DNA from: Halobacillus shinanisalinarum
GTDB lineage: Bacteria > Bacillota > Bacilli > Bacillales > Halobacillaceae
NCBI RefSeq assembly: GCF_022919835.1
Contig: NZ_CP095074.1
Span: 1,240,001-1,304,000, forward strand
Length of the DNA stretch: 64,000 bases
Direction of reading: 5' to 3'
Notes under the pieces: model-generated
Databases searched by the model: none
Told to the model about the DNA's origin: nothing
The model's input: only the letters and a program-made list of their open reading frames with translations
In this document: in pieces, positions 12,879 to 32,630 of the stretch
Numbering within the stretch: the stretch's first letter is position 1
How the letters are laid out: every line of letters starts with the position of its first letter
Program-made: the position numbers and the translations under genes

Positions 12879-12934
12879 CACTTTTGCCTCCTCAAGTGCA
12901 TAATTGAAACTTGACCTCAGCTTAGCATAGGGCA

Positions 12935-12950: not shown

Positions 12951-12979
12951 TTTTTAAAAAAGTACACGAATAAACAAAA

Positions 12980-13022
12980 GGAAACCGTTTTCATGTGTAT
13001 TTATACACACTATACGGTTTCC
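12980..13022 (-). terminator. hairpin after rpiR-type gene
   Basis: GGAAACCGT and ACGGTTTCC form the outer stem, with an inner GTGTAT/ATACAC pair, followed on the minus strand by CCTTTTGTTT. It includes the regulator's stop codon and may partly attenuate read-through into the PTS gene. Confidence 0.6.
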
Positions 13023-13738: not shown

Positions 13739-13889
13739 CGCTAACTCACCTCTATCGTTCGTGTTCAAAGTAATCCTATTATAACATGCCATGATACGAC
13801 AGCTTGCAAAATATCTTCCTGTGAGAAGGCGTTATTATGATACAATGACTTTTAATGAACTGAACTATTCAAAGAGGTGTAAAACAACA

Positions 13890-14846: not shown

Positions 14847-14852
14847 CGATAC

Positions 14853-14900
14853 AAAAACAAGCCACATTCCTTTTTACCAATTGGAATGTGGCTTGTTTTT
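14853..14900. terminator. bidirectional terminator between manA and fructokinase
   Basis: AAAACAAGCCACATTCC pairs perfectly with GGAATGTGGCTTGTTTT; A and T runs on both sides allow termination from either direction. Confidence 0.92.
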
Positions 14901-15767: not shown

Positions 15768-15959
15768 TCCATCATTTCCTCTCTATTAAATATAGACCGC
15801 GTCTTCTCTCAAACTCCAAACCTGCACATTCATTGAGGTTGAGTTGCTAGTCTTAAGTTCAAGCCCTCGTTACTCAGGGTCAGCAAACATCCTTGATGTG
15901 AACAATTCTTCTCCACCATTAATAAAAATCGGAACGATCGATATACAATTGCAGCTGTT

Positions 15960-16178
15960 TTAACCCTTGAGGCATGCGACACTCCCTTGGGATCGTCATA
16001 CTGTGTATCCAGTGGTAATCATGGGTCGGCTGCAGTCGTCTTCCTTTATCATCACACGTCGTTTGCAGGGCATAGAATTCAAATCTTCGTTCCAACTCTA
16101 CAAAGCGGGTATGCTATATCTACACTTATTTTATGGGAAATGGGAAAGAATGTCTATCTATCAAGGGGTGACTCCTAA
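15960..16178 (+). pseudogene. relic of a PLP-dependent serine/threonine dehydratase-like gene
   Basis: One frame reads SSYCVSSGNHGSAAV, then GHRIQIFVP and ILWEMGKNVYLSRGDS. The SSGNHG phosphate-binding loop and the spacing to an IxIFVP strand match fold-type II PLP enzymes such as threonine dehydratase. There is no start, no catalytic Lys segment and no C-terminal half. The rest of the 15768-16227 gap shows nothing else recognisable. Confidence 0.45.
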
Positions 16179-16189
16179 TCGAACAAAAT

Positions 16190-16216
16190 AACCCCATCAG
16201 CAATTCCAATGGGGAA
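16190..16216 (-). terminator. terminator after licR
   Basis: CCCCAT and ATGGGG form a short stem followed by TTATTTTGTT on the minus strand, just beyond the licR-type stop. Confidence 0.55.
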
Positions 16217-16227
16217 GGCTAAGGAGT

Positions 16228-18165
16228 TTATTTTGGTACAAGTAATTTAATAAATTCACTACAGGATTTGCTCCTTATTAGATCTTCAACTAATGACACA
16301 TCATCAATTATTTTACCGAGCATCTCGTACATGGATTGTAAATCTTCGGTGCTATCCTTTTTCACGGATAATAAACAAATGAATTGAACACGCTTCTCTC
16401 CCCACTCAATCGGTCTTTTCAGTGTACAAAAGGTTAAAAAGGTCTGCTCGGACAGAGGTGTGATCGGGTGAGGTACGGCAACTAAATTTCCAAATGCAGT
16501 AGGCGCCACCGCTTCTCTTTCGTATAAAGCTTTAAGAAAACCATGGTGTACTAAACCTTTATTTCTCAATTCATCATATAGAAAATTCAACACTTGCTCT
16601 TGTGTTGAAAAGGGTTGATCCAGAAATACGAGAGATTCCTTAACATAATCAAATAGGCTGATTGAATTTTTAAATACCATGGTTTTAATTCTCTCTAGAT
16701 CATTTTCCCCTAAAATCGTATTAACCTCTATAACAGGTATAGGAAGGGAATCTGGAATAGGAATCGAACTTACGATAAAATCAATGTTTTCAAGGGAACA
16801 TTGCTGGAGTTTATAGTACTCTGTCGTAGCAGCAATCTCCAATTTGGAGTCAAATTCAGATTGCAATTTGTACTTTAATAATTGCGCACTCCCAAATCCC
16901 GAAGCACAAACTATCAGGCAACGTTTAGGTCCCTTTTTCATCTTTCTTCGTTCGATCGCCGCACCAATATGAAGCGCAAGATATCCTATTTCATTTTCGT
17001 CTATCGTGACACCCATCACCTCTTCGAGAACCATGCTCGCAACGATTCCAGTTTCAAAAACTAGAGGATAGTTAGCTTTAATATCATCAATCATAGGATT
17101 ACGGATATTCATCCCATAGCGATAACGATTGATAGCTGGTTTTAAATGGAGGGCTAAGCCAACAATGAGTTCGCGATCATGACGAATACCTAGATCAAAC
17201 TTCTCCTCTATTTTATTTAAGATCGCTAAGGTAACCTGTTGAATGTCTTCATCAAGAAAATCCCTGATTTTTTCCTCGTTCATATTCGTCTGTGAAATCA
17301 TTTTTGTCCCCATTAAATGAATGGCAATATAAGCAACTTCCTCATGTGGAAATGTGAGCTGAAGACAATATTCTACTTTAGCAACGATGCGATCTGCGAC
17401 ATTATATTCCTTTTGATTTCTGATTTCTTCTAAATTTGCCTTATAAATGGAAACATGGTTACCTGATTTTATTCGCTTACAGGCGATCGCAATATGGATA
17501 TATAAATTTTTTATTGCAATATCAGAAGGCGTGATTTCGTTTTCTTGGATTTCTTCAATCATTATTGTCCATATCACTGATAATTCAGTTTCTGTTAACG
17601 AAAAAAGTTGATCAGTTCGTATCTCATTCGAGGCTTCGGCTTTCTTAGCTCGATCAAATACATACTCTGACATGCAAAACCGCAATTTCAGTTCACTTCC
17701 TTGCAGCTTTAATCCGTAGTTTGGGCGTTTATCCATATCGATATCATATTTTTTCAGTATTTTTTTTACACGTTTCAAATCGTTTTGAATCGTTGACTTG
17801 CTAATATGCATATCTTCCGACAAATCTTCTAACTTAATGTAGCTGTCTTCCAAAAGAAGACGTTTAATCATATATCGTATTCTCTCTTCGGGAGAATTGG
17901 GGATAATGGAGTCAGTCACCACTTGTTCTTGGTAGACCTTCTTTAAGTAATGAAGAAATCTCTGATTATCTTGAATATCAAGTTGATAACCTTTCGCTCT
18001 GATGGAGTCGATCTTTGCCCCCTCAAGTAATTCATCCAAATGTTTGATGTCATCCCTAGTCGTTCTAGAGGTTACATCGGTCACTTTGGCCAAGTATTGA
18101 CTCGTTATGGCTGTATCAGCAGCCATGAGTTCGCGTAATATAGTGGTCATTCGGTAGTTTAGCAT
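16228..18165 (-). CDS. licR: BglG-family PRD transcriptional activator (LicR-like)
   Basis: A ~645-aa multidomain regulator: N-terminal helix-turn-helix pair (residues ~1-150), two PTS regulation domains with His-containing motifs (NLYIHIAIACKRI, EEVAYIAIHLMG; then LALHLKPAINR, NEIGYLALHIGAAIERR), an EIIB-like domain (CLIVCASGFGSAQLLKYKL with Cys) and an EIIA-like C-terminus (LVAVPHPITP). This matches LicR, the activator of the lichenan/cellobiose lic operon, controlled by PTS phosphorylation. GAGAGGATT precedes the chosen ATG. It follows the lic genes after a terminator. Confidence 0.9.
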   Translation of the reverse strand: MLNYRMTTILRELMAADTAITSQYLAKVTDVTSRTTRDDIKHLDELLEGAKIDSIRAKGYQLDIQDNQRFLHYLKKVYQEQVVTDSIIPNSPEERIRYMIKRLLLEDSYIKLEDLSEDMHISKSTIQNDLKRVKKILKKYDIDMDKRPNYGLKLQGSELKLRFCMSEYVFDRAKKAEASNEIRTDQLFSLTETELSVIWTIMIEEIQENEITPSDIAIKNLYIHIAIACKRIKSGNHVSIYKANLEEIRNQKEYNVADRIVAKVEYCLQLTFPHEEVAYIAIHLMGTKMISQTNMNEEKIRDFLDEDIQQVTLAILNKIEEKFDLGIRHDRELIVGLALHLKPAINRYRYGMNIRNPMIDDIKANYPLVFETGIVASMVLEEVMGVTIDENEIGYLALHIGAAIERRKMKKGPKRCLIVCASGFGSAQLLKYKLQSEFDSKLEIAATTEYYKLQQCSLENIDFIVSSIPIPDSLPIPVIEVNTILGENDLERIKTMVFKNSISLFDYVKESLVFLDQPFSTQEQVLNFLYDELRNKGLVHHGFLKALYEREAVAPTAFGNLVAVPHPITPLSEQTFLTFCTLKRPIEWGEKRVQFICLLSVKKDSTEDLQSMYEMLGKIIDDVSLVEDLIRSKSCSEFIKLLVPK

Positions 18166-18214
18166 TTTGAATCCTCTCACTTCTATTTTCCGTAATGTCC
18201 TACAAGTGTGCAAA

Positions 18215-18244
18215 AAGGTTCTGATGAGACCATCAGAACCTTTT
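18215..18244 (-). terminator. terminator after licH
   Basis: AAGGTTCTGATG and CATCAGAACCTT form a 12-bp stem followed on the minus strand by TTTTTG, between licH and licR. It implies that licR has its own promoter or depends on read-through. Confidence 0.85.
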
Positions 18245-18271
18245 CCTGCACCAAGCAAACTTTCATGGTTA

Positions 18272-19606
18272 TTAATCCTTGTTCAGGCTGAGCTCAGTTG
18301 AATAAAATTGAGGTAAGTAATCTTGGTGAGCTTCTAACATTTCATCTAACATTTGTTTTGCAATAGAGTCAGAATGAACGAGTGGATTGATCGTCATCGC
18401 CAACAAAGCCTGATTATAGTTACCTGTCACAGCTGCCTCTGATGCAACGCGTTCAAACGACTTGATTTGTTGGACAAGCCCTCTTACTGCTACAGGTAGG
18501 TCACAAACACTAATAGGCTTCGGTCCGCTTCTAGTAATGACACAGTTCACTTCTACCGCAGAATCATAAGGTAAACTTTTGATTGCTCCGTTATTCCTTG
18601 TATTTACAGGCTGTATGTCCCCTTTATCATTATATATCGAACTGATTAAACGACAAGCTGCGTCACTATAATACGCTCCTCCTCGTTCATCTAATTGGGG
18701 AGGCTTGGTTGCTAAGTCCGGGTCTTTATACAGTTCAAATAGTTCACCTTCCAGCTCTTTGACCACTTCGGCTCTGGTGCCTGTTTCGTTCATTTCCTGC
18801 AGTTCGGCCTCCAGCATTTCACTTGTCTGGTAATAGTAGCGGTGATAGGGACAAGGTAAGATCCCGAGTGCCTGAATAAATTCTGGCTGCCATCCCAAAT
18901 CCACAATGTTTTTCATTGTTAAACCAGTACCATTGCTAAGTTTATCTAACACCAAATCCGTTATTCGTTCACCATCTAAATAAACATCCGTTCCAAAAAC
19001 CATATGATTTAAACCAGCGAATTCAATGTAAACACGTTCAGAATCAACTCCGAGCATCTCAGCCACACCCATCTTCATACCAATAGGGACGTTACACAAG
19101 CCGACGGTTTTAGTTAGATTACTATATCGTAAAACGGCCTCCGTCACCATTCCCGCAGGATTTGAGAAGTTAATAAGCCATGCATCAGGACACAACCGTT
19201 CCATCTCACGACAAATATCCAAGATCACTGGAATGGTTCGCAGTCCTTTAAATAAGCCGCCTGGTCCGTTTGTTTCTTGTCCAATAACGTTATATTTTAA
19301 AGGAATACGTTCATCTAAGGCTCTAGCTTCAAGAAGTCCGACACGAATTTGGGTTGTCACAAAATCCGCATTCTCCAAGGCTTCTTTACGATTATAGGAT
19401 AAATGTATTTCTATCGGGACTTCAGCTTTCTCGACCATCCGCTTGGCCAATGCCCCGACGCTTTCCAATTTTTCTTTTCCTGCTGGAATATCTACCAGCC
19501 AAAGTTCCTTGATCGGCAGTTCTTCATATCTATTAATAAACCCTTCGACAAGTTCAGGTGTATAGCTTGATCCTCCCCCGATCGTGACTACTTTAATCTC
19601 TTCCAT
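18272..19606 (-). CDS. licH: GH4 6-phospho-beta-glucosidase
   Basis: A 444-aa family 4 glycosidase, which uses NAD+ and Mn2+. Visible are the dinucleotide-binding VVTIGGGSSYTPELVEG, INFSNPAG, VGLCNVPIG (metal-binding Cys) and AGLNHM (metal-binding His). It hydrolyses 6-phospho-beta-glucosides produced by the PTS encoded upstream. AAGGGGTGAAC precedes the ATG. It is last in the licB-licC-licA-GH1-licH operon, 49 bp after the GH1 gene. Confidence 0.95.
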   Translation of the reverse strand: MEEIKVVTIGGGSSYTPELVEGFINRYEELPIKELWLVDIPAGKEKLESVGALAKRMVEKAEVPIEIHLSYNRKEALENADFVTTQIRVGLLEARALDERIPLKYNVIGQETNGPGGLFKGLRTIPVILDICREMERLCPDAWLINFSNPAGMVTEAVLRYSNLTKTVGLCNVPIGMKMGVAEMLGVDSERVYIEFAGLNHMVFGTDVYLDGERITDLVLDKLSNGTGLTMKNIVDLGWQPEFIQALGILPCPYHRYYYQTSEMLEAELQEMNETGTRAEVVKELEGELFELYKDPDLATKPPQLDERGGAYYSDAACRLISSIYNDKGDIQPVNTRNNGAIKSLPYDSAVEVNCVITRSGPKPISVCDLPVAVRGLVQQIKSFERVASEAAVTGNYNQALLAMTINPLVHSDSIAKQMLDEMLEAHQDYLPQFYSTELSLNKD

Positions 19607-19655
19607 CAGTTCACCCCTTATAACCTATTGCCAGAAAATTATATCCGTTCTATAG

Positions 19656-21044
19656 TTAAAAACCATTCTTGTCAGCAACTTGTTTAATAAAATAGGCGCT
19701 TTTCTTTGGTTTGCGTTCTTTGGTTTCAATATCTACTGAGAAGAATCCATATCGATTTTTGTAAGCATTCATCCATGACCAATTGTCCATAAAGGACCAT
19801 AAATGATAGCCTTTTGCGTTACAACCTTCTTCAATCGCTTGATGAAGCCATTGGAGGTGACCCTTAATAAACTCAATGCGGTAGTCATCCTCAATAATGC
19901 CATCTTGGATAAAACGTCCTTCATCTTGAACGCCCATTCCATTTTCTGAAACAAACGATTCTATGTTCCCATAATTCTCCTTAAGATTCATCATAATATC
20001 GTATATCCCTTTTTCATAGATTTCCCAGCCACGGTATTTGTTCATTTTTCTACCTGGCATTTCATAGTTGTCAAAAAACCAATCTGGCATAAATGGGCTA
20101 TAAGGGTTAGGCAAATGATCTTTTGCTTTGACTCGACGAGGCTGATAATAGTTTACTCCCAGCAAATCAACTGTATTTGCTTCCATTAAGACTGCATCAC
20201 CTTCCTCTGTTTGGGGAAGGTGTCCATGTTCTTCTAAGAGCTTAATTAACTCTTGCGGATACTTCCCTAACACTGCCGGATCTAAAAAGCTTCTGTTAAA
20301 AAATAAGTCAGCAATCTGGGATGCTTTTAGGTCAGCAGGATTTTGGCTTCTCGGATAAGAAGGGGTTAGATTCAATATGACACCGATTTGACTTTCATCA
20401 AATTGATGGAACCTGAATGCCTTGATAGATTTGGCGTTAGCAATCATAGTATTATAGCCGACCTGAATGGCACGCTTCGCATCAACAACGTTGGGATAAT
20501 GAAAATCATAAAGGTATCCGCCTTCGACCGGCACGATTGGCTCGTTAAAGGTGAACCATTTCTTCACTCGATCTCCAAAAAGTTCAAAGCATGTGTTCGC
20601 ATACTCTACAAATAAGTCTACAACCTCTCTGTTCTCCCAACCGCCAATTTCCTGCATTTCAAGCGGCATATCAAAATGGAAAAGATTAACGAACGGCTCA
20701 ATATCGTGAGCCATTAATTCATCAATGACACGGTTATAAAATTGCACTGCTTCTTGATTGATTTCCCCCTTGCCCCCTGGAATTAATCTCGACCAGGATA
20801 TAGAGAAGCGAAACGTATTATGCCCTATTTCTTTCATTCTTTTAATATCTTCTTGATAAGTGTAATAGAAATTAGAAGTTGTTTCCGGTCCTACGCCTTC
20901 AAAGAAGCGGTTAGGCTCTTTAGCATACCAATAATCCCATATATTCTGTCCTTTCCCCCCCTGTGATGCTGCTCCTTCGATTTGCGTGGCTGACGTGGCA
21001 CTCCCCCACCAAAAACCTTCAGGAAATGTGTAATCGACTGACAT
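19656..21044 (-). CDS. GH1 6-phospho-beta-glucosidase
   Basis: A 462-aa family 1 glycosidase. It opens with PEGFWWGSATSATQIEGA; WFTFNEP contains the acid/base Glu and SFVSENGMG the nucleophile Glu; the C-terminal LWSFMDNWSW motif is typical. Position in a cellobiose-type PTS operon indicates a phosphorylated substrate. Having both GH1 and GH4 phospho-glucosidases in one operon suggests use of several beta-glucosides. GGGGAGG lies upstream. Confidence 0.93.
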   Translation of the reverse strand: MSVDYTFPEGFWWGSATSATQIEGAASQGGKGQNIWDYWYAKEPNRFFEGVGPETTSNFYYTYQEDIKRMKEIGHNTFRFSISWSRLIPGGKGEINQEAVQFYNRVIDELMAHDIEPFVNLFHFDMPLEMQEIGGWENREVVDLFVEYANTCFELFGDRVKKWFTFNEPIVPVEGGYLYDFHYPNVVDAKRAIQVGYNTMIANAKSIKAFRFHQFDESQIGVILNLTPSYPRSQNPADLKASQIADLFFNRSFLDPAVLGKYPQELIKLLEEHGHLPQTEEGDAVLMEANTVDLLGVNYYQPRRVKAKDHLPNPYSPFMPDWFFDNYEMPGRKMNKYRGWEIYEKGIYDIMMNLKENYGNIESFVSENGMGVQDEGRFIQDGIIEDDYRIEFIKGHLQWLHQAIEEGCNAKGYHLWSFMDNWSWMNAYKNRYGFFSVDIETKERKPKKSAYFIKQVADKNGF

Positions 21045-21059
21045 AATTGCTTCCTCCCC

Positions 21060-21380
21060 TTACTTATTTCTATAAATTTCGATAATTTCTTGAGCTAAGT
21101 CCCGGACAGTCATCGAGGTCATTAAGTGGTCCTGGGAATGAATCAACAATACATTCACAGGATTCTCTTCCCCGCTTGCTTCTTTTTGTAATAATTCTGT
21201 TTGATATTTATGTGATTTGACTAGTTCTTCTCCAGCTTCTTCGATTAAACGATCTGATTCCTCAAAGTTGCCCTTTTTCGCTTCCTGAATCGCTTCCATT
21301 GCGTTTGATTTGCCGTTGCCAGCATATAATATGATTTGAAAGGCTATTTCCGTAATATTGTTTTCAGTTTTGTTTTCCAT
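21060..21380 (-). CDS. licA: PTS lactose/cellobiose EIIA
   Basis: A ~106-aa all-helical EIIA of the lactose/cellobiose family. IAFQIILYAGNGKSNAMEA and the phosphorylation-site region LLIHSQDHLMT (active His) are present. It relays phosphate from HPr to EIIB. The ATG at 21380 is chosen for its AGGGGTGA; an upstream ATG at 21401 overlaps the spacer. It lies 15 bp before the GH1 gene. Confidence 0.93.
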   Translation of the reverse strand: MENKTENNITEIAFQIILYAGNGKSNAMEAIQEAKKGNFEESDRLIEEAGEELVKSHKYQTELLQKEASGEENPVNVLLIHSQDHLMTSMTVRDLAQEIIEIYRNK

Positions 21381-21407
21381 TTGTTCACCCCTGAGGTTCA
21401 TAATAAA

Positions 21408-22709
21408 TTAGGCACTTTTATCGTTTGATTCTCCATTATCATTTTTTTCAGATTCATAATATTGATTATCCATGATTTTTAAGAACGGCCACCAAATGAG
21501 GAACACGACTCCGATATTAAAGGCCTGAAGAACCCCTCCCTGCCACGAATTGGTAGCAATCGCTCCATTTAAGATGGTTGGTGTTGTCCATGGTACGATT
21601 ACCCCTGTCGGTGGCGGAACTAATCCGGATGCCATTACAAGGTACGTAATGATAGCTACAACTACCGGGGCCACTAACCATGGAATAAGGACAAGAGGAT
21701 TCATAATGATCGGCAGACCAAAGATAATCGGCTCATTCACATTGAAAATACCAGCCGGGGCCCCTAACTTTCCAATATCCTTCATTTGTCTGCTTCGTCC
21801 TATTAAAAAGATTCCAAGTATAACAGCCAAGGTCATTCCCGAGCCACCCATTCCCACAATGAATGACTCAATAAATTGCTTGTTCACAATATGAGGAACG
21901 GCTTCTCCCGCTTTAAATGCCGCCAAATTTTCCGTAGCAAGTGAATACCAAATCGGGTCCATGACGGAGTTGACGATGATCTGTCCGTGCAGACCAAAAA
22001 ACCAAAATATTTGAATGAGTAAGACAGCTACAATGGTAGCCGGTAGTCCACTCCCAAGTGAAGTTAGTGGTGCTTGAACGACTGTATAGATAAAGTTTTG
22101 CACGTCCCCAAATGTTGTATAACTAAAAATAATTCGTATAATTAAAAAGATCGTTAATGTAAAGGTGATAGGAATAAGTGCACTAAAAGAACGTGACACA
22201 GCTTCTGGGACGCCTTGAGGCATTTTAATCGTCCAGTTCTTTTCCGTGAAGAATCGGTATAACTCTGCGGAAGCAAAGGCTGTAAAAATCCCCAAAAACA
22301 TCCCCTTAGCACCTAAGTTTTCGGCAGCGATTACTCCCGTCACATCTCCTACTATCTGGGGAGTTAGAATAAGGAATGCCGCAAGAGCCGTTACCCCTCC
22401 ATAGACCGCCTCCCCCTTGTAATATTCCGTTAATTTGTATCCGATACCTACAATGACAAAAGTAGCCATAATAGAGAGTGTTCCAGCAGAAGCAGCGCCT
22501 AGCGCTGATTGATATTCAGCATACGCTTCCGCTCCAATCAACTTATCAAGGAATGGTAAATTTGCAATAACAACAAAGATCGAACCAAAAATAATTAATG
22601 GCAATGCAATCATAAAGCCGTCTCGCAAAGAGGTTAAATAACGATTATTATTCAACTTATCTGCAATAGGCATTAAAATATTCTCCAATACATCCATGAA
22701 TCTGCTCAC
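21408..22709 (-). CDS. licC: PTS lactose/cellobiose EIIC
   Basis: A 433-aa membrane EIIC with about ten helices. Family motifs include LRDGFMIALPLIIFGSIF near the N-terminus and GIFNVNEPIIFGLPI, the substrate-site NEP motif. It transports beta-glucosides such as cellobiose. The GTG start follows GGGGGAGATGAACA. The protein ends with a charged cytoplasmic tail. Confidence 0.95.
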   Translation of the reverse strand: MSRFMDVLENILMPIADKLNNNRYLTSLRDGFMIALPLIIFGSIFVVIANLPFLDKLIGAEAYAEYQSALGAASAGTLSIMATFVIVGIGYKLTEYYKGEAVYGGVTALAAFLILTPQIVGDVTGVIAAENLGAKGMFLGIFTAFASAELYRFFTEKNWTIKMPQGVPEAVSRSFSALIPITFTLTIFLIIRIIFSYTTFGDVQNFIYTVVQAPLTSLGSGLPATIVAVLLIQIFWFFGLHGQIIVNSVMDPIWYSLATENLAAFKAGEAVPHIVNKQFIESFIVGMGGSGMTLAVILGIFLIGRSRQMKDIGKLGAPAGIFNVNEPIIFGLPIIMNPLVLIPWLVAPVVVAIITYLVMASGLVPPPTGVIVPWTTPTILNGAIATNSWQGGVLQAFNIGVVFLIWWPFLKIMDNQYYESEKNDNGESNDKSA

Positions 22710-23344: not shown

Positions 23345-23379
23345 AAAAAGCCACGGATGGTCACCATCCGTGGCTTTTC
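23345..23379 (-). terminator. terminator after PIG-L gene
   Basis: AAAAGCCACGGATGG and CCATCCGTGGCTTTT form a perfect 15-bp stem just beyond the deacetylase stop. Confidence 0.9.
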
Positions 23380-23396: not shown

Positions 23397-25910
23397 TTAT
23401 TCATTATGAAGCGGGTAACTCACAAGGTTAGTGAAAATACGATATCCACCTGGTACTTGATTTTGAATTTGGCGGTACCAGACGAGATTCGTGTATAAGT
23501 AACTTCCTTCTCCATAGTCCGCCATCAATATACCACCATTAAACGGTTCTCCGTTTGGATCAGCCATACTGACAAATGTTTCAAACTTTTCGTCCCATTC
23601 CATTGGATAGTACAATCCACGTTCCTGGATCCAATTGGACCAATCATCTTCCTTAATAGTGTTTGGAAAATTAAAAAGTGGGTGATCCGGTTTTTGTACA
23701 TCGACTGCGGCGGTTTCGTCGGTTACCCGCCACTCGATGGAGGGCTGACCGATAACAAGTTTATATGGTGCGGTTTGCTCTGGGTTCCAGTTGTCCCATG
23801 GTTTGTTATATTGAACAACCAGATGACCTCCGTCTTCGGCGTATTGAAGAAGTCTTTCATTATTGTTTCTTAAATCTTCGCGGGAAAGGTAGGCCCTGAC
23901 GCCTGTTACGATTGTATCGTATTTGGATAAGTCACCTGTTTGTAAATCTTCGGATCCTAGTTTTGTCACATTCATACCAATTCCTTGTAATCGTTCTGCT
24001 ACTTTATCAAAGCCGCTGTCGATATAGCCGACTTTTAAGTTATCCGGCAGGTTCAGATCAAAGGCTACTCCTTTTACCTTAGCTTGTTGTAGGTAATAAG
24101 AAGTCGAGATATGGTCATACTGAATTTTTTGAACGTAAGTGCTTAACGATTTTCCGTTAGTCTTTACTATTGGTTCTAAAGAAAACTCACCTTTGTTTAC
24201 TTCAGTTCCCGGGGATACTGTGAAGGAAACCGTTTTTATTTCGTTTTCTTCACTAAAATTAACAGACTTTGACTCAGGTTTTACAGTCCATCCTTCAGGA
24301 ACATTTAGTTCAACAGATGCATTAAGAGAACCCGAAGTATTATTTTGGACTTCTGCTTTGACGTTGACTTTTTCCGGAATGTCTAGTGTATTCACCACTA
24401 GCTTCGTTGGGTCCGTCTGCACTGATACGTCCGGTAAAACAGCCACTGTCCTTTCAGTTTGATAACGCTGTTCAACTTTTGTAGGTCCTACCGAATAGGA
24501 GAGTTTCGAATTCATCTTCGGTTCATCATAAGGCTCGAAGTATTCCGCATTTTCAGGGACCTGGACAAGATATTCAATTGTTTTCTTTTCACCTGCTTTC
24601 AGACGAAATGGCTTAGGAGTATGATTAACGGTCCATCCTTTAGGAAGACTTAGTGCTCCCTGAACATCTTTCAAGGGGTGTTTACCATTATTTTCGACAA
24701 CGATTGTCACTGTTGTTTGACCATCCTGAACGAGAGTAACGTCTTCAACAACTGTTTCTACTGCTAAACTGGAAGCAACTTTACTGACCTCAAGTAGCTG
24801 TTTCTCTTTAACGTCAAGACGGAACAAGATGTCCTCTTTTATGTTTGTTTCTAAATTAGCTTCTTGGATTTCTGATTGTAGCTTTCTAGCTTCTTTAAGG
24901 GCGATGTGAGCCTTTTTCAGAGCCTGGGAACGATTTGGATATTGATCGATTACCTTATCAAGCGTTTTTTGAAAATGCTTGAGTTTTGAACCAATAGCTG
25001 GATTGTTATCCGTTAAACGAGCTGCTATTTCAGTAAAGTCGTAAGCCAGACCATCAAACATGTTTTCTTCTTTTGGGATCTCCGTAACCGATTTTGCAAG
25101 TCTCAAGTTGATGGTTTCTGGTTCTGCCGGAATGTCGTCACCCATTCCTTGACTTTTGTGGAGAAAGCGTGACTTTTCACCTAATTGCGGATAGGTCATG
25201 CCATAAATCGGATCATACGTACCGATTTCCAATAAAGTCGTCGCATGGTCTGACTCAGCAGGAAGGTATAACTTCTTTACTTGCCAGGTAGACAAACCTT
25301 CTTCAAGTTGTTTTGGAAAGACGTTTGGGTCGGCTGCATCTTCAAATGCTCTTACTGTAAGTTGATTGATGGCCCGATGGTGTCCGTGCTGTGTATCGAT
25401 ATCCAGGAAAGAAGGGAAAAGGATATCAGGCTTATATGTTCGGATTTTACGGATAAATCGTTCATAAGTAAGTTCTTCTCCCCATTTTTCCAATGTCTCT
25501 TCAGGGCTTTTTGAGAAACCAAAGTCATAAATCGGATCGTTCGTCGTTTCACTTAAATGAAACACCTCTACACCTGTAACCTCGGATGCTTCAATGAGTT
25601 CATTTGAACGGATAATCCCCAGTGCATTACCAAGTTCCTTCCCGATTTCATTTTGTCCGCCCTCACCACGATTGGCTATGAGGCTTGCCGTTCTTATCCC
25701 AAGTCCCCTCGACAAGTAGGCAAGAAGGTGACTACGTTCGTCGTCAGGGTGAGCTCCAGTATTTAAGAAACTTAATGTGGTGTCTAGCGGCTTAAGTGTG
25801 TTCCATAAGTCAACATCAGGTTTTGTTTTTTCTTCCCCATGTGATGTTTTAGGCGTCACCATTGGAACGATTAAAATCAAAATCAGGAATAATGATAAAA
25901 GCTTTCCCAT
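23397..25910 (-). CDS. secreted PIG-L (LmbE) family deacetylase with NEW3-like domains
   Basis: A ~837-aa protein with a signal peptide (MGKLLSLFLILILIVPMV). Residues ~40-300 are a PIG-L/LmbE zinc deacetylase: NTGAHPDDERSH and DTQHGHHRAIN supply the metal ligands. A helical linker follows, then two beta domains resembling NEW3 (GALSLPKGWTV, ELNVPEGWTVKPES), then a C-terminal class I amidotransferase-like domain (VTGVRAYLSREDL, GGHLVVQYNKPW). It probably deacetylates an N-acetylated sugar or glycan outside the cell. GAAAGGGGAAA precedes the chosen ATG. It is last in the ROK/ABC/lyase operon, 95 bp after the lyase. Confidence 0.85.
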   Translation of the reverse strand: MGKLLSLFLILILIVPMVTPKTSHGEEKTKPDVDLWNTLKPLDTTLSFLNTGAHPDDERSHLLAYLSRGLGIRTASLIANRGEGGQNEIGKELGNALGIIRSNELIEASEVTGVEVFHLSETTNDPIYDFGFSKSPEETLEKWGEELTYERFIRKIRTYKPDILFPSFLDIDTQHGHHRAINQLTVRAFEDAADPNVFPKQLEEGLSTWQVKKLYLPAESDHATTLLEIGTYDPIYGMTYPQLGEKSRFLHKSQGMGDDIPAEPETINLRLAKSVTEIPKEENMFDGLAYDFTEIAARLTDNNPAIGSKLKHFQKTLDKVIDQYPNRSQALKKAHIALKEARKLQSEIQEANLETNIKEDILFRLDVKEKQLLEVSKVASSLAVETVVEDVTLVQDGQTTVTIVVENNGKHPLKDVQGALSLPKGWTVNHTPKPFRLKAGEKKTIEYLVQVPENAEYFEPYDEPKMNSKLSYSVGPTKVEQRYQTERTVAVLPDVSVQTDPTKLVVNTLDIPEKVNVKAEVQNNTSGSLNASVELNVPEGWTVKPESKSVNFSEENEIKTVSFTVSPGTEVNKGEFSLEPIVKTNGKSLSTYVQKIQYDHISTSYYLQQAKVKGVAFDLNLPDNLKVGYIDSGFDKVAERLQGIGMNVTKLGSEDLQTGDLSKYDTIVTGVRAYLSREDLRNNNERLLQYAEDGGHLVVQYNKPWDNWNPEQTAPYKLVIGQPSIEWRVTDETAAVDVQKPDHPLFNFPNTIKEDDWSNWIQERGLYYPMEWDEKFETFVSMADPNGEPFNGGILMADYGEGSYLYTNLVWYRQIQNQVPGGYRIFTNLVSYPLHNE

Positions 25911-26005
25911 TGAATTTCCCCTTTCAAAGTTTGGTAAAGAGATGGAACGAATTAGAAGAGATGAACCACCTACCATAAGATATAATACTTGGCACAAACA
26001 CCGAA

Positions 26006-27403
26006 TCATTTCCTTGCTCTAATCATAGCTTTTACCACATTTGGATTTGGTCCCCCTGTAATCTTTCGTCTTTCCACAAAACAAACGGGATCAATAATAC
26101 ATTGCCAATCCTTTTCGGTTATCGCAACGCCTTCTATCCAATCATTTATTTCGCTCAAAGAAATTTCGTATAGTTCCTTTTCCATTTGAATAGCTTTTTT
26201 CGCGATTACACTTGCTTTGTGGTGAGCTTTTCTAAATGAAACACCATAATCGCGTGCGAGTACGTCGGCAAGCTCAGTGATCGTAATCATATTTTCCCTT
26301 GCTTGTTGATGGGCCTTCTCCTTATTAAAATCCATCGTCAGTACTACAGCACGCATTAAACGTAATACACGAATCGCTTTCTTATATCCTCCATAGATGT
26401 GCGGCTGTAAATCATCTTCGGTATCATTGATATCTCCATATGGTGTATTGTGAATCATGTGAACGACTGCCATTCCTTCCGCCGCTGCACTGCTTGCTAT
26501 GGCGCGTGAATGTTCAATTGAAACGGGATTTCTTTTTTGCGGCATGATACTGCTGACTTGCACATAGGCATCAGACACTTTTAACAAACCGACTTCTTTT
26601 GATGCCATTCGCAAAAATTCTTGCGTCCATCTCCCTATATTGGTCATCAAGCTCACTAAGCCTTGAGCAGCCTCAATCAAATAATCACCTGTGGCAATCG
26701 CATCATATGAGTTTTCGATTAGTCCATTAAACCCGAGCAGCTCTGCCATTCGTTCACGATTTATGGAAAAGCCGGTGGTTGTAATAGCCACCGCTCCCAT
26801 GGGTGATTGGTTCACTGTTCGATAGGCTTGTTTCAGCCTCGTCACATCTCTTTGCAAATTATCATAAATGGCTACTAAGTAATGACCAAACGTTGTAGGT
26901 TGGGCAGGCTGTGTATGGGTATGGGCGGCCATAACCGTCTCCACATGCTGTTCAGCCTGATCTAGAATAGCCTCGCTAAGTTGCTCTGCATCGCTTATCG
27001 CCCTTTTGATGTAATCCCTGATGACAATTCGATACATCGCCTCGCCCATATCATTTCTGCTTTTAGCTATGTGCATCTTTCCTGCAAGATCGTCACCAAT
27101 TCGTTCACCAATTTTGGACTCCACTAGAAAAAATAAATCTTCGCACGCCGCTGAGTATTCTAGTTGACTTTGATCAAGCCCTTTTACTACCTCCATGCCT
27201 TTTAAAATTTGTTCATTTTCCGCTTGGGTAAGCATCCCTTGTTCCGTAAGCATGATCGTATGCGCTTTATGAATCATGAACATCGCATCAATTAGATGTT
27301 CTTTTTGATCGTAAAATACGGGCTTTAGTAACGATTCCACGTATGTTTTACCTGGAAATGCAATACCGTCACTTAATTCAAATTGCTGCTTTGCATTACT
27401 CAT
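26006..27403 (-). CDS. argininosuccinate lyase-like enzyme of unknown substrate
   Basis: A ~465-aa aspartase/fumarase superfamily protein nearest to argininosuccinate lyase. Visible are AGKMHIAKSRNDMGEAM, HTHTQPAQPTTFGHY (catalytic His region) and the signature SSIMPQKRNPVSIEHSR with the catalytic Ser loop. Compared with true ArgH, HTGRSRNDQ has become HIAKSRNDM and the usual SDRD is ATGD, so the substrate is probably not argininosuccinate. EDDS lyase is a known relative with a different N-substituted aspartate. No argG is adjacent. GGGGTG precedes the chosen ATG. It lies 29 bp after the permease. Confidence 0.8.
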   Translation of the reverse strand: MSNAKQQFELSDGIAFPGKTYVESLLKPVFYDQKEHLIDAMFMIHKAHTIMLTEQGMLTQAENEQILKGMEVVKGLDQSQLEYSAACEDLFFLVESKIGERIGDDLAGKMHIAKSRNDMGEAMYRIVIRDYIKRAISDAEQLSEAILDQAEQHVETVMAAHTHTQPAQPTTFGHYLVAIYDNLQRDVTRLKQAYRTVNQSPMGAVAITTTGFSINRERMAELLGFNGLIENSYDAIATGDYLIEAAQGLVSLMTNIGRWTQEFLRMASKEVGLLKVSDAYVQVSSIMPQKRNPVSIEHSRAIASSAAAEGMAVVHMIHNTPYGDINDTEDDLQPHIYGGYKKAIRVLRLMRAVVLTMDFNKEKAHQQARENMITITELADVLARDYGVSFRKAHHKASVIAKKAIQMEKELYEISLSEINDWIEGVAITEKDWQCIIDPVCFVERRKITGGPNPNVVKAMIRARK

Positions 27404-27432
27404 CAAAAAGCACCCCAATATATCAATAAAAT

Positions 27433-29118
27433 TTATAATGTGTTTTCTGATTTGACGCCAAAAAACCGATAAGCCACGTACATGACGATCGCTATTAAAC
27501 CAACTTGAATCATTCCGAAAGCTGCCGCCTGACCGATATTAAATTGTCTCAATTGGTTCATGATTTCGATGGAAATAGGACGGTTGCCTATGGTGTAAAG
27601 CAAGACAGATGTCGGAAATTCTCCTACAGCCTGAACAAAAGCTAGTAACGTACCACTCAACACCCCCGGCATGATGATTGGTATGACAATACGTCTAAAG
27701 GTGTAGATCCACTTTGCTCCTAAGTTTTGTGCAGCTTCTTCGATCGAGTCATCCATTTGCTCAAGTACGGCCGATGTCGACCTTACGACAAGTGGAATAA
27801 ATCGGATAAAATAGGCAAGCGGCAAAATCCAGAAGGTTCCGACAAGAACTTTTCCAAACGAAAACGGTGACGACTGATTAAAGGCTAAAATTAAATTCAT
27901 CCCGACAACTGTAGCTGGTAATGCCCAAGGAATCATTACCAAAATATCTAGCAAGTTTTTTCCAATAAAACTGCGCTTCACAAGGGCATAAGATGTAATA
28001 ATGCCAAATACAAACACACCTGCACAGGCAAGAACGGACATAATTAAACTGTTTTTCACAGGATCCCATATATTAGGGTCTTCAAACAACAATCTGAAGT
28101 TCTCTAAGCTAAAGGTTTGTGGATAGGTTTGCCACGTCCACCCTCCTTCAGGTACAAGAGATAAAACCAATAGGGTCATATGCGGCAATAGCAAGATGAT
28201 CATCGCGATGACGCCAAGTGTTACCATAAACCACTTTAATAATGGATGACTCACTTCGCTGCGATGAGCCCCAATCCCCTTGCTTGCCATTCGATAATCT
28301 TTTCGACCTTGATACCAGCGCATAAATAAGAGAAAGGAGATCGAGACGGCAGACAAAATTACAGACTGGGTTGCAGCCATTTCTAAGTCACCATTCACTT
28401 TGGAAAAGTAAATTTGTAAACTTAAGACCCGATAACCACCAGCTAGTAGAAAGGGGGCACTAAAAGAAGCCATCGAAACCATAAAAACTAATAAAGAAGC
28501 TGCAACTAATCCAGGTGTTAACAAAGGAAAGGTCACTTTTCTAAATACTGTAAATTTACTGGAACCTAGATTATAAGCCGCTTCTTCTAAAGATGGATCA
28601 ATGTTATTTAAAGCGGATGACGTGGTCATATAAAAATAGGGATACATCGTGTACGCATGGACTAACAGAATACCCGAAACCCCACCGATACTAAAGGGGA
28701 TTTCCGACAGATTAAAGACATCTTTTATGAAATTTGGAACTAATCCTGCTTCGCCATATAGGAACATGAAAGCCATAACACCGACTAATGAAGGGAGGAC
28801 AATAGGCATGATGGCAATATTTGAGAAAAACTGACGTCCAGGAAAATCGTAGCGATTGAAAATATAGGCTAAAGGAATTCCGATTAAGGCACTAAAGAAA
28901 ACGGACAACAGAGAAATATATACGGAGTTCCACAATGCCTCTAAATTGGCAGCCGCTTTTTCCCCGAAAAAGTCCGTATAATTTTGGACGGAAAAGCCTT
29001 CATTTTTTCTAAAGCTTTCAAGTATCGTCTCAATCGACGGGTAGAGTACATATCCAATCAATACTAATAGTACTGGAATCAATAAGAAAAGTGTTTTTCT
29101 CTTTTCTGCATTTAGCAT
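27433..29118 (-). CDS. ABC transporter permease, two fused BPD domains (FbpB/AfuB-like)
   Basis: A 561-aa membrane protein with twelve predicted helices in two halves. Each half has the cytoplasmic loop that contacts the ATPase: EEAAYNLGSSKFTVFRKVTFPLL (first half) and EEAAQNLGAKWIYTFRRIVIPII (second half), the EAA motif. This double-length form is typical of Fe3+, thiamine and aminoethylphosphonate importers. Encoded between its ATPase and the lyase. Confidence 0.9.
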   Translation of the reverse strand: MLNAEKRKTLFLLIPVLLVLIGYVLYPSIETILESFRKNEGFSVQNYTDFFGEKAAANLEALWNSVYISLLSVFFSALIGIPLAYIFNRYDFPGRQFFSNIAIMPIVLPSLVGVMAFMFLYGEAGLVPNFIKDVFNLSEIPFSIGGVSGILLVHAYTMYPYFYMTTSSALNNIDPSLEEAAYNLGSSKFTVFRKVTFPLLTPGLVAASLLVFMVSMASFSAPFLLAGGYRVLSLQIYFSKVNGDLEMAATQSVILSAVSISFLLFMRWYQGRKDYRMASKGIGAHRSEVSHPLLKWFMVTLGVIAMIILLLPHMTLLVLSLVPEGGWTWQTYPQTFSLENFRLLFEDPNIWDPVKNSLIMSVLACAGVFVFGIITSYALVKRSFIGKNLLDILVMIPWALPATVVGMNLILAFNQSSPFSFGKVLVGTFWILPLAYFIRFIPLVVRSTSAVLEQMDDSIEEAAQNLGAKWIYTFRRIVIPIIMPGVLSGTLLAFVQAVGEFPTSVLLYTIGNRPISIEIMNQLRQFNIGQAAAFGMIQVGLIAIVMYVAYRFFGVKSENTL

Positions 29119-29125
29119 CCCCTTG

Positions 29126-30229
29126 TCACTCCCTTGCCTTTGGGATTACTCGTATTTGATCTTCTGGCATATGAACACTGACCTCTGTTCCTTCTTTAAA
29201 ATACGTACTAGGACCTCGATTTAAATCCGTCGCCTTAATCGTAAAATTATCGTTCAGTTTTATAAACGTATGAACAGATGCACCGGTAAATTGCACAAGC
29301 GAAACTTCACCTGTGAATACATTATTCTTACCTGTGGTCTGATTTCCATCAATATGAATAGCTTCTGGCCTGATCGACATCACAAGTTCATCACTTCCAT
29401 CGTAAGCAGCTATGTTTAATTCCGAATGGTTAACATGGATCGAACTTTCTAATAGGTTTGAGTGAAAAACCAGATCATCACCCAATGCTTTTTCTTCAAA
29501 TATAATCGGTGATAAATTCGTTTCTCCAATAAATTCAGCCACAAAGTCATTAACCGGCTTATTATAAATGTCGGTTGGGGTGCCTATCTGCTGGCACTCT
29601 CCATAGTTAAACACGGCAATTCGATCACTCATGGTCAGTGCTTCCACTTGATCATGCGTCACATAGATGGTGGTAATGCCGTACTCACGTTGCAACCTTA
29701 GTATTTCCGTACGCATTTCATCTCGCAATCTAGCATCTAAGTTACTCAAAGGTTCATCTAATAGTAAAATATCGGGTTCAATTACAAGAGCTCTTGCTAA
29801 GGCTACTCGTTGCTGCTGTCCCCCGCTCAGTTGACTTACTTGGCGAGTAATATATTGATCGAGACGAACTTTATTCAGCACATCTTCTACCCTTTTTTTC
29901 GTATTGGCTTTATTAATTTTTCTTACATTTAAGCCAAAGGCAACATTTTCAAATACGGTCATATGAGGAAATAAGGCATAGTTTTGAAAAACCATGCCCG
30001 TATTTCTTTTTTCAGGTGGAACAGTCGTCATATCTCTTTCATTAAACTTGACCTTTCCGCTCGAAGGGTAATAGAAGCCGGCAATCATTCGAAGAGTTGT
30101 TGTTTTCCCGCATCCACTTGGACCTAAAAAGGTAAAGAACTCGCCTTCTTCGATAACTAGATCCAACCCTTTAACTGCCGTCACGTTACCGAAACGTTTT
30201 GTAATGGTAGATAAATTCACTGTTGACAT
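29126..30229 (-). CDS. ABC transporter ATP-binding protein (FbpC/PotA-like)
   Basis: A 367-aa ATPase with Walker A GPSGCGKTT, Q-loop VFQNYALFPHM, signature LSGGQQQR, Walker B ILLLDEPLSNLD and the switch His in YVTHDQ. The C-terminal ~130 residues form a TOBE-type domain (SIRPEAIHI). It powers the adjacent importer. The stop is 7 bp before the permease start. Confidence 0.93.
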   Translation of the reverse strand: MSTVNLSTITKRFGNVTAVKGLDLVIEEGEFFTFLGPSGCGKTTTLRMIAGFYYPSSGKVKFNERDMTTVPPEKRNTGMVFQNYALFPHMTVFENVAFGLNVRKINKANTKKRVEDVLNKVRLDQYITRQVSQLSGGQQQRVALARALVIEPDILLLDEPLSNLDARLRDEMRTEILRLQREYGITTIYVTHDQVEALTMSDRIAVFNYGECQQIGTPTDIYNKPVNDFVAEFIGETNLSPIIFEEKALGDDLVFHSNLLESSIHVNHSELNIAAYDGSDELVMSIRPEAIHIDGNQTTGKNNVFTGEVSLVQFTGASVHTFIKLNDNFTIKATDLNRGPSTYFKEGTEVSVHMPEDQIRVIPKARE

Positions 30230-30259
30230 ATAACAACAACTCCCCTCATTTAGAGCATT

Positions 30260-31372
30260 CTATTCTCCGCTCTTATCTTTCTCTGTGTTCTTGATTTTGT
30301 TATCCCAATGTTCCATCCAATTTTGAGACTTCTCTTGGAATAGAGTCCAATCAATCTCCATCGGCTTAATGTCGGTCTCTGTTATCCAAGCAGGCAGGTC
30401 TTCGATATCTTCACGTGTAGGAATACGGTAATATGTTTCGGCTAGTAATTTGGCAGCTTCTTTCGTATTCACAAACTCATAAAAAGCTTTTGCAGCCTTT
30501 GGATGTGGAGCATCTTTAATGAGGGCGATCCCCTCTGTTAAAACTGGTGTTCCACTTTCAGGAATAACATAGTCAAAAGGATAGCCTTTTTCCTTAGCTA
30601 ACATGACTGTGTCTGGCATATTCCATACGGATAAGGAGCCGACACCCTTGGCAACCTGGTTATACATAATTTCTGGATTTGCAGAGTACTCTTTCGTGTT
30701 TTCATCGAGCTTTTGTAGCCATTCGTAGCCTTCTTCAGGACTTTGGGTATCTTGATACGTACGATAAATCATGGATGAGAAGATGGTACGCATCGTTCCT
30801 GACGCTAATGGATAGCGAATAATGATTTCATCCTTCCATTTAGGGTCAAGGAGATCATCCCAATCCTTAGGTGCCTCTTCTTCGGAAATTTCTTTTGTAT
30901 TGTATAAAATGACCTCTGGAGTAATGGACGTTCCTGACCACATCCAATCTTCGTCATGGTACATATCAGGGAGAGTATCTGCATAGGAAGGTTTATATTC
31001 GGCCAATAACTCTTCTTCCTTGGCTTTATCAAAGTTTACCTGAGGAGCTCCCCACCATACATCAGCTTGCGTGTTATTTTTCTCAGAGCGAACACGGTCT
31101 AATATTTCCTGGGAACCCATGTCTAAAAATTGCATATCCACATCATATTCTGCTTCAAACTGCTTCTCAAATTCGCTTAATATATCCTTCCCGTGTGGAG
31201 AATACACCACGACTTTTTCTTCCAGATCATTAGCCGACTCTGAATTCTTATCAGTATCTGGTTCATCACTTGCTTCATCACTCGATCCACCCGCCATACA
31301 TCCTGCAAGGACAAAGACTAATGCAGCTAATAATAATGATGAAATCACATATGATTTTCTTAGATTCTTCAT
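30260..31372 (-). CDS. ABC transporter substrate-binding lipoprotein, family 1
   Basis: A ~370-aa lipoprotein: the signal peptide ends LAGC, giving an acylated Cys at about residue 24, followed by a Ser/Asp-rich linker. VVYSPHGKDILSEFEKQFE and ADVWWGAPQVNFDKAKEE are typical of the Fe3+/thiamine/phosphonate-type binding proteins. There is no clear iron Tyr pair, so the ligand is open. GGGGGT precedes the chosen ATG (31372). Confidence 0.9.
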   Translation of the reverse strand: MKNLRKSYVISSLLLAALVFVLAGCMAGGSSDEASDEPDTDKNSESANDLEEKVVVYSPHGKDILSEFEKQFEAEYDVDMQFLDMGSQEILDRVRSEKNNTQADVWWGAPQVNFDKAKEEELLAEYKPSYADTLPDMYHDEDWMWSGTSITPEVILYNTKEISEEEAPKDWDDLLDPKWKDEIIIRYPLASGTMRTIFSSMIYRTYQDTQSPEEGYEWLQKLDENTKEYSANPEIMYNQVAKGVGSLSVWNMPDTVMLAKEKGYPFDYVIPESGTPVLTEGIALIKDAPHPKAAKAFYEFVNTKEAAKLLAETYYRIPTREDIEDLPAWITETDIKPMEIDWTLFQEKSQNWMEHWDNKIKNTEKDKSGE

Positions 31373-31388
31373 GACAAAATACCCCCAA

Positions 31389-32552
31389 TTAAATGTCAAT
31401 TAATGTATCAAACTCTTTCAGGAATAACGCCACCGCCCCGACAACTCCCGATTCTTTCCCAAATGTTGTTTGTACAACCTCACACGTTTCTGGAGTGTAC
31501 CGCTCTATGACGTTCATCATCTGCTTACGGATGACAGAATAAGACCCGCTGACACCACCCCCTAAAATCACGAGCTCAGGATCGAAAAGCGACACATAAT
31601 TCGCAATACCAAGCGCCAAATTCTCGATAGCAAAATCAATCACCTCTTGGGCGTCCTTATTCTGTTGTTGATAAAGTTCAAAAGCTTCTTTTGCGGAAAC
31701 TGCTTTTCCTAGGCGCTCAGACAATTGATTTCCAATCGAAGAACCACTAGCGATACTTTCTAAAAAACCATACCCCTCATATACTGGGTGGTAGTTCTTT
31801 GCATGGACTCGATCAGTGACCAAATAACCAATTTCCCCAGCACTATAAGTACTCCCTCGGTATAGGCTTCCATTGATCATTAACCCACTGCCAATCCCTG
31901 TACCAATTGCAATATATATCAGATTATTTTTGTTCCTTCCAACCCCTTTCCAATGTTCACCCAAGACATTTATATTCACGTCATTATCTATATATATTGG
32001 CAGGTCAAAAATCTCCTGGAGCCTTTTACGAATAGGAAAACGGTTCCATTTTAAAGCAGGAGCTTCTTTAACCATTCCTTCTTCTATATTTGTGATGCCA
32101 GGTATCCCTACACCAACACCTAGAATTTTTGTATCATCAATCTTCAACTCTTCTTTCATCATTTCTACCTGGTCTTTTATTACCTCGAACAAGTCGCGTT
32201 CCAAGTGATCCTGGGTAGGAAAATCCCTATAGACGCATACCTCGCCGTATAAATCCGTTATCCCTATTGCTACCTTTGTACCACCAATGTCCATCCCGAT
32301 AATAAATGCTTTTTTCGGGTTAAATGCTAGATTTACGGGCTTTCTCCCTCCATTTGTTGACGCTTCACCGTTACCGGTCTCATAGATCCATTCATCTTCT
32401 AAAAGCACGTCAACAAGTGTGGATACTGTAGGTTTACTTAATGAAAGTTTCTTAGCAATATTGGCCCGAGAGACAGATTCCTCTTCCATAATGCACTTTA
32501 AGATCATCTTTTGATTCATATTCTTAATGTAACCCGCATTTCCTTTCCGCAT
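31389..32552 (-). CDS. ROK family transcriptional repressor (NagC/XylR type)
   Basis: A 387-aa protein with an N-terminal MarR-like helix-turn-helix (SRANIAKKLSLSKPTVSTLV) and a ROK sugar-binding domain (GMDIGGTKVAIGITD, AIGTGIGSGL, VILGGGVSG). The Cys zinc cluster of ROK kinases is not evident, as in some repressors. It starts the operon for the ABC importer, lyase and deacetylase and should respond to a sugar or sugar derivative. AAGGGGC lies upstream of the ATG. Confidence 0.88.
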   Translation of the reverse strand: MRKGNAGYIKNMNQKMILKCIMEEESVSRANIAKKLSLSKPTVSTLVDVLLEDEWIYETGNGEASTNGGRKPVNLAFNPKKAFIIGMDIGGTKVAIGITDLYGEVCVYRDFPTQDHLERDLFEVIKDQVEMMKEELKIDDTKILGVGVGIPGITNIEEGMVKEAPALKWNRFPIRKRLQEIFDLPIYIDNDVNINVLGEHWKGVGRNKNNLIYIAIGTGIGSGLMINGSLYRGSTYSAGEIGYLVTDRVHAKNYHPVYEGYGFLESIASGSSIGNQLSERLGKAVSAKEAFELYQQQNKDAQEVIDFAIENLALGIANYVSLFDPELVILGGGVSGSYSVIRKQMMNVIERYTPETCEVVQTTFGKESGVVGAVALFLKEFDTLIDI

Positions 32553-32605
32553 TGAACATGCCCCTTAGCCTTTCGTATTTAAAGGTTTTATTTTTAAGAG
32601 ATATC

Positions 32606-32630
32606 AGTTAGTAAAGTTTACTTACTAACT
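32606..32630. promoter_or_regulatory. operator palindrome upstream of ROK gene
   Basis: AGTTAGTAA, seven bases, then TTACTAACT: a perfect 9-bp inverted repeat about 55 bp upstream of the ROK start. It resembles XylR-type ROK operators and is the likely autoregulatory site. Confidence 0.7.

Follow-up and report, generated by a model that had tools for sequence, protein, structure and literature searches.

An operon of Halobacillus shinanisalinarum with an ArgH-like lyase and a secreted PIG-L protein, a candidate pathway for an N-acylglucosaminyl glycoside, possibly N-acylglucosaminyl-malate

The EDDS lyase of Chelativorans sp. BNC1 (PDB 6g3d, 6rx8) and the argininosuccinate lyase ArgH are the described enzymes closest to an ArgH-like lyase encoded in a 64,000-nucleotide stretch of the Halobacillus shinanisalinarum genome (contig NZ_CP095074.1, positions 1,240,001 to 1,304,000; hereafter the window). 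The lyase gene belongs to one likely operon of six open reading frames on the minus strand (window 32629 to 23345), which also encodes a ROK-family repressor, an ATP-binding cassette (ABC) importer and a large secreted PIG-L (LmbE-like) protein. NagC-type ROK aminosugar operons resemble this locus and its relatives in the ROK regulator, the sugar importer and, in the relatives, an aminosugar kinase and NagB, but the loci described here have a predicted fumarate-forming lyase or a glycoside hydrolase of family 4 (GH4) instead of, for example, a phosphotransferase system (PTS) and NagA. According to a review on LmbE-like proteins (PMC4101496), the characterised enzymes act on N-acetylglucosamine cores, Mca and Bca act on N-acylglucosamine cores, and BshB makes glucosaminyl-malate (printed there as 'maleate').

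We read the operon, with a probability of about one half, as a ROK-repressed system for the catabolism of an extracellular N-acylglucosaminyl O-glycoside, most likely N-acylglucosaminyl-malate. In the proposed pathway, the secreted PIG-L protein would hydrolyse the N-acyl bond on glucosamine, the ABC importer would bring in glucosaminyl-malate, and the ArgH-like lyase would cleave the C-O bond of the malyl ether by elimination, releasing fumarate and glucosamine. Phosphorylation of the sugar and its deamination by NagB would then yield fructose 6-phosphate, by means of genes located elsewhere (nagB was found, a kinase gene is putative), and a sugar ligand would release the ROK protein from its operator. 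Candidate substrates are the bacterial antioxidant bacillithiol (Cys-GlcN-malate; GlcN, glucosamine), its oxidised forms or conjugates, or N-acetylglucosaminyl-malate. The bacillithiol core, glucosaminyl-L-malate, is what we take to be the known natural glucosamine glycoside with a succinyl-type aglycone, and its malate has the configuration handled by the fumarase/ArgH superfamily. Gene content, conservation, an operator motif, co-occurrence, a glycosidase swap and kinase and deaminase genes in relatives were observed; by this gene context the glycoside and glucosamine nature of the substrate is well supported, and from its convergence we infer the enzymatic steps, the presence of malate in the substrate and its origin from bacillithiol. 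Among the matches listed from the open-licence PMC literature, none dealt with bacillithiol catabolism or with this gene set.

The gene content agrees with an earlier reading of the DNA letters (the sequence-only reading), which had proposed these genes in this order, with altered motifs in the lyase and a palindromic operator before the ROK gene, as a co-regulated pathway of uptake, deacylation and lyase cleavage. Pfam searches identified ROK with a MarR-type winged helix in the regulator, SBP_bac_6/8 in the binding protein, ABC_tran with TOBE_2 in the ATPase, two BPD_transp_1 stretches in the permease, Lyase_1 with ASL_C2 in the lyase, and PIG-L with two NEW3 stretches in the last protein, and a 23-bp palindrome lies upstream of the ROK gene. 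Thus, the repressor with its putative operator, the importer and the lyase were borne out, and the co-regulated pathway is supported.

The lyase is distinct from the biosynthetic ArgH of this genome, because argG adjoins another argH 2.7 Mb away and the lyase falls in a well-supported clade of its own. Its likely start at 27403 gives a protein of 465 aa, matching its database copy (P0001). In the PDB, its sequence matches EDDS lyase best (E 1e-65, 31% identity), ahead of argininosuccinate lyases, and the AlphaFold model (mean predicted local distance difference test score, pLDDT, 87) has EDDS lyase as its first structural match, followed by ArgH structures. A maximum-likelihood tree of 51 rows unites 43 lyases, that of the window among them, in a 100/100 clade, with the lyases of loci L080, L113 and L117 as its sister group; the ArgH rows (four in this tree, five in a second one) cluster separately, again with 100/100. 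The second tree, to which plasmid-borne relatives were added, places four Deinococcus and eight alphaproteobacterial lyases inside the lyase clade (32 rows, 100/98), and those of Haloarcula, Haladaptatus, Geminicoccaceae and Agrobacterium vitis (L156), which have other neighbours, outside it. EDDS lyase is a long branch whose placement is unsure in both trees. As the sequence-only reading had expected, the lyase does not group inside true ArgH. The sister-clade lyases (L080, L113, L117, L156) also have other neighbours, such as peptide-type ABC permeases in A. vitis, and may act on yet another substrate.

The lyase is usually labelled as an arginine-making enzyme, and it does pass the NCBIfam argH model TIGR00838 (333.8 bits against a cut-off of 279.5), as a second argininosuccinate lyase for arginine metabolism would. 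The model is evidently not specific here; PRK06705 fits better (561.9 bits) yet stays below its own cut-off of 883. With an argG-argH pair elsewhere, a separate clade and sugar genes rather than argG seen beside the lyase, a role in arginine metabolism is highly improbable, and we dropped it.

The lyase has the fold and the SSIMPxKxN motif of the fumarase/aspartase (ASL) superfamily, and its clade retains the ArgH-type catalytic motifs SRND, TH and SSIMPxKRN. Three residues separate it from ArgH: His303, Asp329 and Gln287 are present in all 43 clade rows and in none of the four ArgH sequences compared. Because the catalytic motifs are kept and these residues are clade-specific, the reaction is probably an elimination yielding fumarate, with a different and more polar pocket for the partner. 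Equivalents of the SSIMP motif, Lys286, Asn288 and Arg112-Asn113 of EDDS lyase are likewise retained, but the clade has His168 at the position of Gln159 and Val (41/43 rows; Val299) at that of Asp290, and the region of Tyr320 aligns with gaps. The clade also differs from EDDS lyase in its sugar-operon context at the loci seen. The kinship to EDDS lyase would suit the scavenging of an EDDS-like aminopolycarboxylate or metallophore, as would the importer: the window type is akin to phosphonate, polyamine, iron and similar importers in an NCBIfam scan, and the binding protein has a weak kinship, below the cut-off, to aminoethylphosphonate-binding models. The partners of the lyase are CUT1 sugar importers, ROK, PIG-L, glucosamine-type kinase and NagB, which makes this explanation very unlikely, and it was set aside given the sugar importers and aminosugar genes.

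The lyase and the large PIG-L protein occur together. The PIG-L protein was found in 56 of 398 Bacilli genomes (E<=1e-100), and 54 of these 56 also have the lyase (Fisher p 9e-48, kinship ignored); these class-sample searches scored only the top 2 to 4 candidates of each genome, and three 398-genome draws were taken as the same. Both PIG-L genomes without the lyase (G695, G738) have genes for a GH4 glycosidase, a ROK protein and a CUT1 importer near the PIG-L gene. This GH4 subfamily is present in five of the 398 genomes, the other three (G563, G627, G698) being genomes in which the thresholds used gave neither lyase nor PIG-L protein. Each of these three encodes NagB within about 7 kb of the GH4 gene, and two have a CUT1-like importer (24-31% identity) beside it. 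No GH4 of this subfamily was detected in the 73 lyase genomes of the class sample at E<=1e-100, nor in 27 of them re-searched with all candidates scored. The lyase and the GH4 glycosidase thus seem able to stand in for one another, a sign of a glycoside rather than of a C-N lyase: a glycosidase in the place of the lyase makes a glycoside the probable common substrate, and its sugar is probably glucosamine, given the links to NagB. The GH4 subfamily of L131, L132 and L133, with NagB nearby in 3/3 genomes, is itself a candidate glucosamine-releasing glycosidase.

The sequence-only reading had named an N-substituted amino acid or amino sugar cut by a C-N lyase. Its amino-sugar half fits the gene context; its C-N cleavage of an N-substituted amino acid does not, given the GH4 in the place of the lyase in 2/2 exceptions and the aminosugar genes beside the lyase, and a glucosamine glycoside cut at the C-O bond fits better. 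A variant of that idea combines both halves: a sugar-bearing N-substituted aspartate, such as an Amadori or Heyns product of aspartate, degraded by true C-N cleavage. EDDS lyase, the closest solved structure, works in this way, and N-(glucos-2-yl)aspartate would likewise yield glucosamine and fumarate. Such a compound has no N-acyl bond for the PIG-L protein, and the glycosidase swap and the clade His168 in place of EDDS lyase Gln159 also speak against it; we regard it as quite unlikely. Cleavage of the lactyl ether of N-acetylmuramic acid was dropped as well, since the lactyl group has no acidic hydrogen of the kind required by this lyase family and MurQ performs that step.

The PIG-L protein most probably starts at 25910 (837 aa, with a signal peptide recognised by eye) rather than at 26009, and close homologues among the matches listed have 836-837 aa. 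Its PIG-L domain scores above the Pfam cut-off and shares with BshB, bacillithiol-conjugate amidase and other LmbE-like proteins the HPDD motif and a second His motif; it retains the conserved arginine and histidines aligned to BshB Arg53, His110 and His113 (numbering from PMC4101496). The window protein differs from these enzymes in its secretion (by eye), its length, its NEW3 domains and the replacement of the equivalents of Arg109 and Asp112. It does not pass the curated Mca model (32 bits against a cut-off of 277). Of the large deacetylase of the sequence-only reading, the PIG-L domain, secretion and NEW3 part thus stood; the amidotransferase-like C-terminal domain was not confirmed, as the C-terminal 238 residues had no Pfam match up to E 10 and no amidotransferase was named among the 50 structure matches listed. 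The AlphaFold model (mean pLDDT 80) matches LnmX, diacetylchitobiose deacetylases and MshB. The resemblance to diacetylchitobiose deacetylases would suit another N-acylglucosamine glycoside without malate (chitobiose-like, lipid- or peptide-linked), on which PIG-L and GH4 act while the lyase catalyses a linked, different step, and GH4 with NagB does occur also without PIG-L and lyase. In the PIG-L genomes, however, it is precisely the lyase whose place GH4 takes, so that the two enzymes would be expected to work on one bond region, and the lyase retains the fumarate-forming motifs. A malate-free glycoside is therefore unlikely, if less so than the sugar-aspartate.

Versions of the cluster are found in Bacillota, Deinococcota and Alphaproteobacteria. 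Within the family, 7 of 44 genomes (own genome counted) have the lyase at E<=1e-100; at E<=1e-75 it is present in 17 of 398 genomes of the phylum and 73 of 398 of the class Bacilli. A scan in which each species was represented by a single genome retrieved 55 relatives of 56-78% identity; by their record titles, these belong to Bacillaceae- and Planococcaceae-type genera. Neighbours were counted within 9 kb of the lyase, mostly via tblastn to reference proteins, at 115 loci (60 chosen from the family, phylum and class sample matches and the 55 of the species scan). Some of these end at contig edges, and at least four genomes are doubled (L063/L037, L064/L044, L105/L029, L116/L014), so that the counts are slightly inflated. 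ROK is present at 79/115 loci, the large PIG-L protein at 76/115 and an importer at 96/115, of which 68 are of the window type and 28 of the CUT1 sugar type (28 rather than 30, L014 and L116, one genome, having an unrelated CUT1 importer beside a window-type one). Less frequent neighbours are an N-acetylglucosamine-type kinase (19/115), a small PIG-L protein (10/115), amidohydrolase_2 and a creatininase-family protein (7/115 each), a PfkB-type kinase (5/115), NagB (3/115) and an L-cysteine desulfidase relative (1/115). The clustering of these gene families is thus conserved in other genomes, as the sequence-only reading had predicted.

The related operons supply aminosugar genes. The N-acetylglucosamine-type kinase gene lies directly 3' of the lyase gene on the same strand at all 19 loci having it, and one such kinase matches N-acetylmuramic acid/N-acetylglucosamine kinase, a hexokinase and human NAGK in the PDB. 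At L068 the genes for the lyase, a PfkB kinase and NagB are consecutive. Two small PIG-L proteins of related operons have BshB2 as their best model (122 and 100 bits, cut-off 195). Cysteine genes appear as well: the L066 cluster has consecutive genes for an amidohydrolase, an L-cysteine desulfidase relative (whose sole PDB matches are L-cysteine desulfidase) and the lyase, and at L086 and L125 cysteine synthase and cystathionine gamma-lyase genes adjoin the PIG-L genes. Relatives of the L066 type are limited in its class to L066 itself (1/29), and the class of G131 has lyase relatives in 3/17 genomes, one of the L117 type.

A tblastn search of plasmid records gave 75 with a lyase-like match, the weakest of which (about 31% identity and below) resemble ordinary ArgH. 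Among 22 inspected, 17 have a CUT1 importer beside the lyase; these 17 clusters include a ROK regulator in 12, a PIG-L protein in 10 and an annotated sugar kinase in 9, with a ROK-family protein taken as the kinase in two more (Roseomonas, Paroceanicella). NagB is encoded in one, in the lyase operon of Paroceanicella (L153), and a SIS-domain protein in one (Roseomonas). In Deinococcus ficus (L146) and D. wulumuqiensis a single run of genes encodes ROK and the lyase together with a large PIG-L or NEW3 protein, the CUT1 importer, a small PIG-L protein and a sugar kinase. The remaining five comprise one record each from Haladaptatus, Haloarcula, Geminicoccaceae and A. vitis, and one from Anoxybacillus with a true argG-argH pair.

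The putative operator of the window operon has the sequence GTTAGTAAAGTTTACTTACTAAC. Its core, TTAGTAA-N(3-12)-TTACTAA, occurs in 32 copies at 28 of the 115 related loci (2.27 Mb), with a spacer of either 3 (18 copies) or 7 (14 copies). All 32 lie in zones 5' of PIG-L, ROK, lyase or binding-protein genes (-500 to +60, 8.5% of bases), and five Markov resampled controls contained none; the motif is therefore more than chance. The PIG-L gene has its own copy in L015, L026 and L041, where it is opposed to the importer genes. The exact core is absent from 87/115 loci, mostly the more distant ones, as may be expected if the operator drifted. The locus thus combines the two features of a ROK-regulated sugar operon, a ROK regulator and a conserved palindrome before the operon genes.

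Several observations weigh against N-acylglucosaminyl-malate catabolism, in addition to the TIGR00838 score. Kinase and NagB genes are absent from the window operon; the genome has nagB in an apparent nagA-nagB-nagR cluster elsewhere. At E<=1e-100, 19 of the 73 lyase genomes are without the PIG-L protein (four of these, G109, G625, G654 and G661, have amidohydrolase_2 beside the lyase), and in the neighbourhood counts there is no large PIG-L protein at 39/115 loci, no importer at 19/115 (some at contig ends, three in the sister clade), and an amidohydrolase_2 adjoining the lyase at 7. L018 and L021 contain the lyase and GH4 together. The replaced Arg109 and Asp112 equivalents depart from BshB, and the PIG-L model is as close to diacetylchitobiose deacetylases as to MshB. 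Adjoining cysteine genes were seen at three loci only (L066, L086, L125). The malate part of the substrate is suggested by the general chemistry of the superfamily. BshC, present in the genome of the window, is absent from 12 of 23 lyase genomes, where the substrate would be foreign and need not be bacillithiol; this fits the scavenging of a foreign compound without proving bacillithiol.

Amidohydrolase_2 genes lie beside the lyase gene at L066:7350-8291, L070:11243-12187, L071:8366-9427 and L072:7203-8114, where no large PIG-L protein was seen, and may encode an alternative amidase. The loci without an importer (Sporosarcina, Pseudalkalibacillus and others) give no further functional hint. 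In Sporosarcina (L027, L028, L043, L056 and others) the lyase gene, without importer or ROK genes, has genes of leucine biosynthesis as neighbours (by eye) and occupies a constant position in the genome; L030 has the importer cluster there.

Features of the operon and their positions in the window
Feature	Position	Strand	Basis or remark
Palindromic putative ROK operator	32607..32629	-	55 bp 5' of the ROK gene
ROK-family repressor, N-terminal winged helix	31389..32552	-	open reading frame list, Pfam, NCBIfam
Extracellular solute-binding lipoprotein of the ABC importer	30260..31399	-	open reading frame, Pfam; lipobox LAGC by eye
ABC importer ATPase, TOBE_2 domain	29126..30229	-	open reading frame list, Pfam, NCBIfam
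ABC importer permease, two membrane domains fused	27433..29118	-	open reading frame list, Pfam, NCBIfam
ArgH-like lyase, proposed glucosaminyl-malate fumarate-lyase	26006..27418, likely start 27403	-	Pfam, tree, residues, model
Secreted PIG-L (LmbE-like) predicted N-acylglucosamine amidase, NEW3/immunoglobulin-like domains, 837 aa	23397..25910	-	
Terminator-like hairpin ending the operon	23345..23379	-	hairpin search

The hairpin 3' of the PIG-L gene has 16 pairs; 10 terminator-like sites were found in the region against 7.3 expected from shuffles. The genome also encodes two further small PIG-L proteins (228 and 234 aa). Elsewhere in the window, positions 8280-22709 contain genes of two sugar PTS, mostly assigned by eye: one of the mannose type, accompanied by an alpha-mannosidase-like gene, and one for cellobiose, accompanied by GH1- and GH4-like genes. 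The PTS-linked GH4 has only 28-29% identity to the GH4 that replaces the lyase. Positions 147-1565 encode a protein whose LXG domain (Pfam 171 bits) is of the kind found at the N-terminus of secreted polymorphic toxins. At L003 (G000:C1, about 3.045 Mb), a second ArgH-like gene of this genome is flanked on one side by an antiporter-like gene (by eye) and on the other by a gene of the arginine deiminase/DDAH family (Pfam ADI and DDAH_eukar).

Judged from sequence comparisons, the lyase may tentatively be regarded as the founding member of a new group of C-O lyases converting alpha-glucosaminyl-L-malate to glucosamine and fumarate, and the clusters as a widespread means of scavenging bacillithiol or its breakdown products from dead neighbours in at least three phyla, including organisms unable to make it. 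If so, each step of the pathway would have a named enzyme, the fumarase/ArgH superfamily would extend to the cleavage of glycoside C-O bonds, and two orphans, the large NEW3-containing PIG-L proteins and the ArgH-like genes in sugar operons, would be explained.

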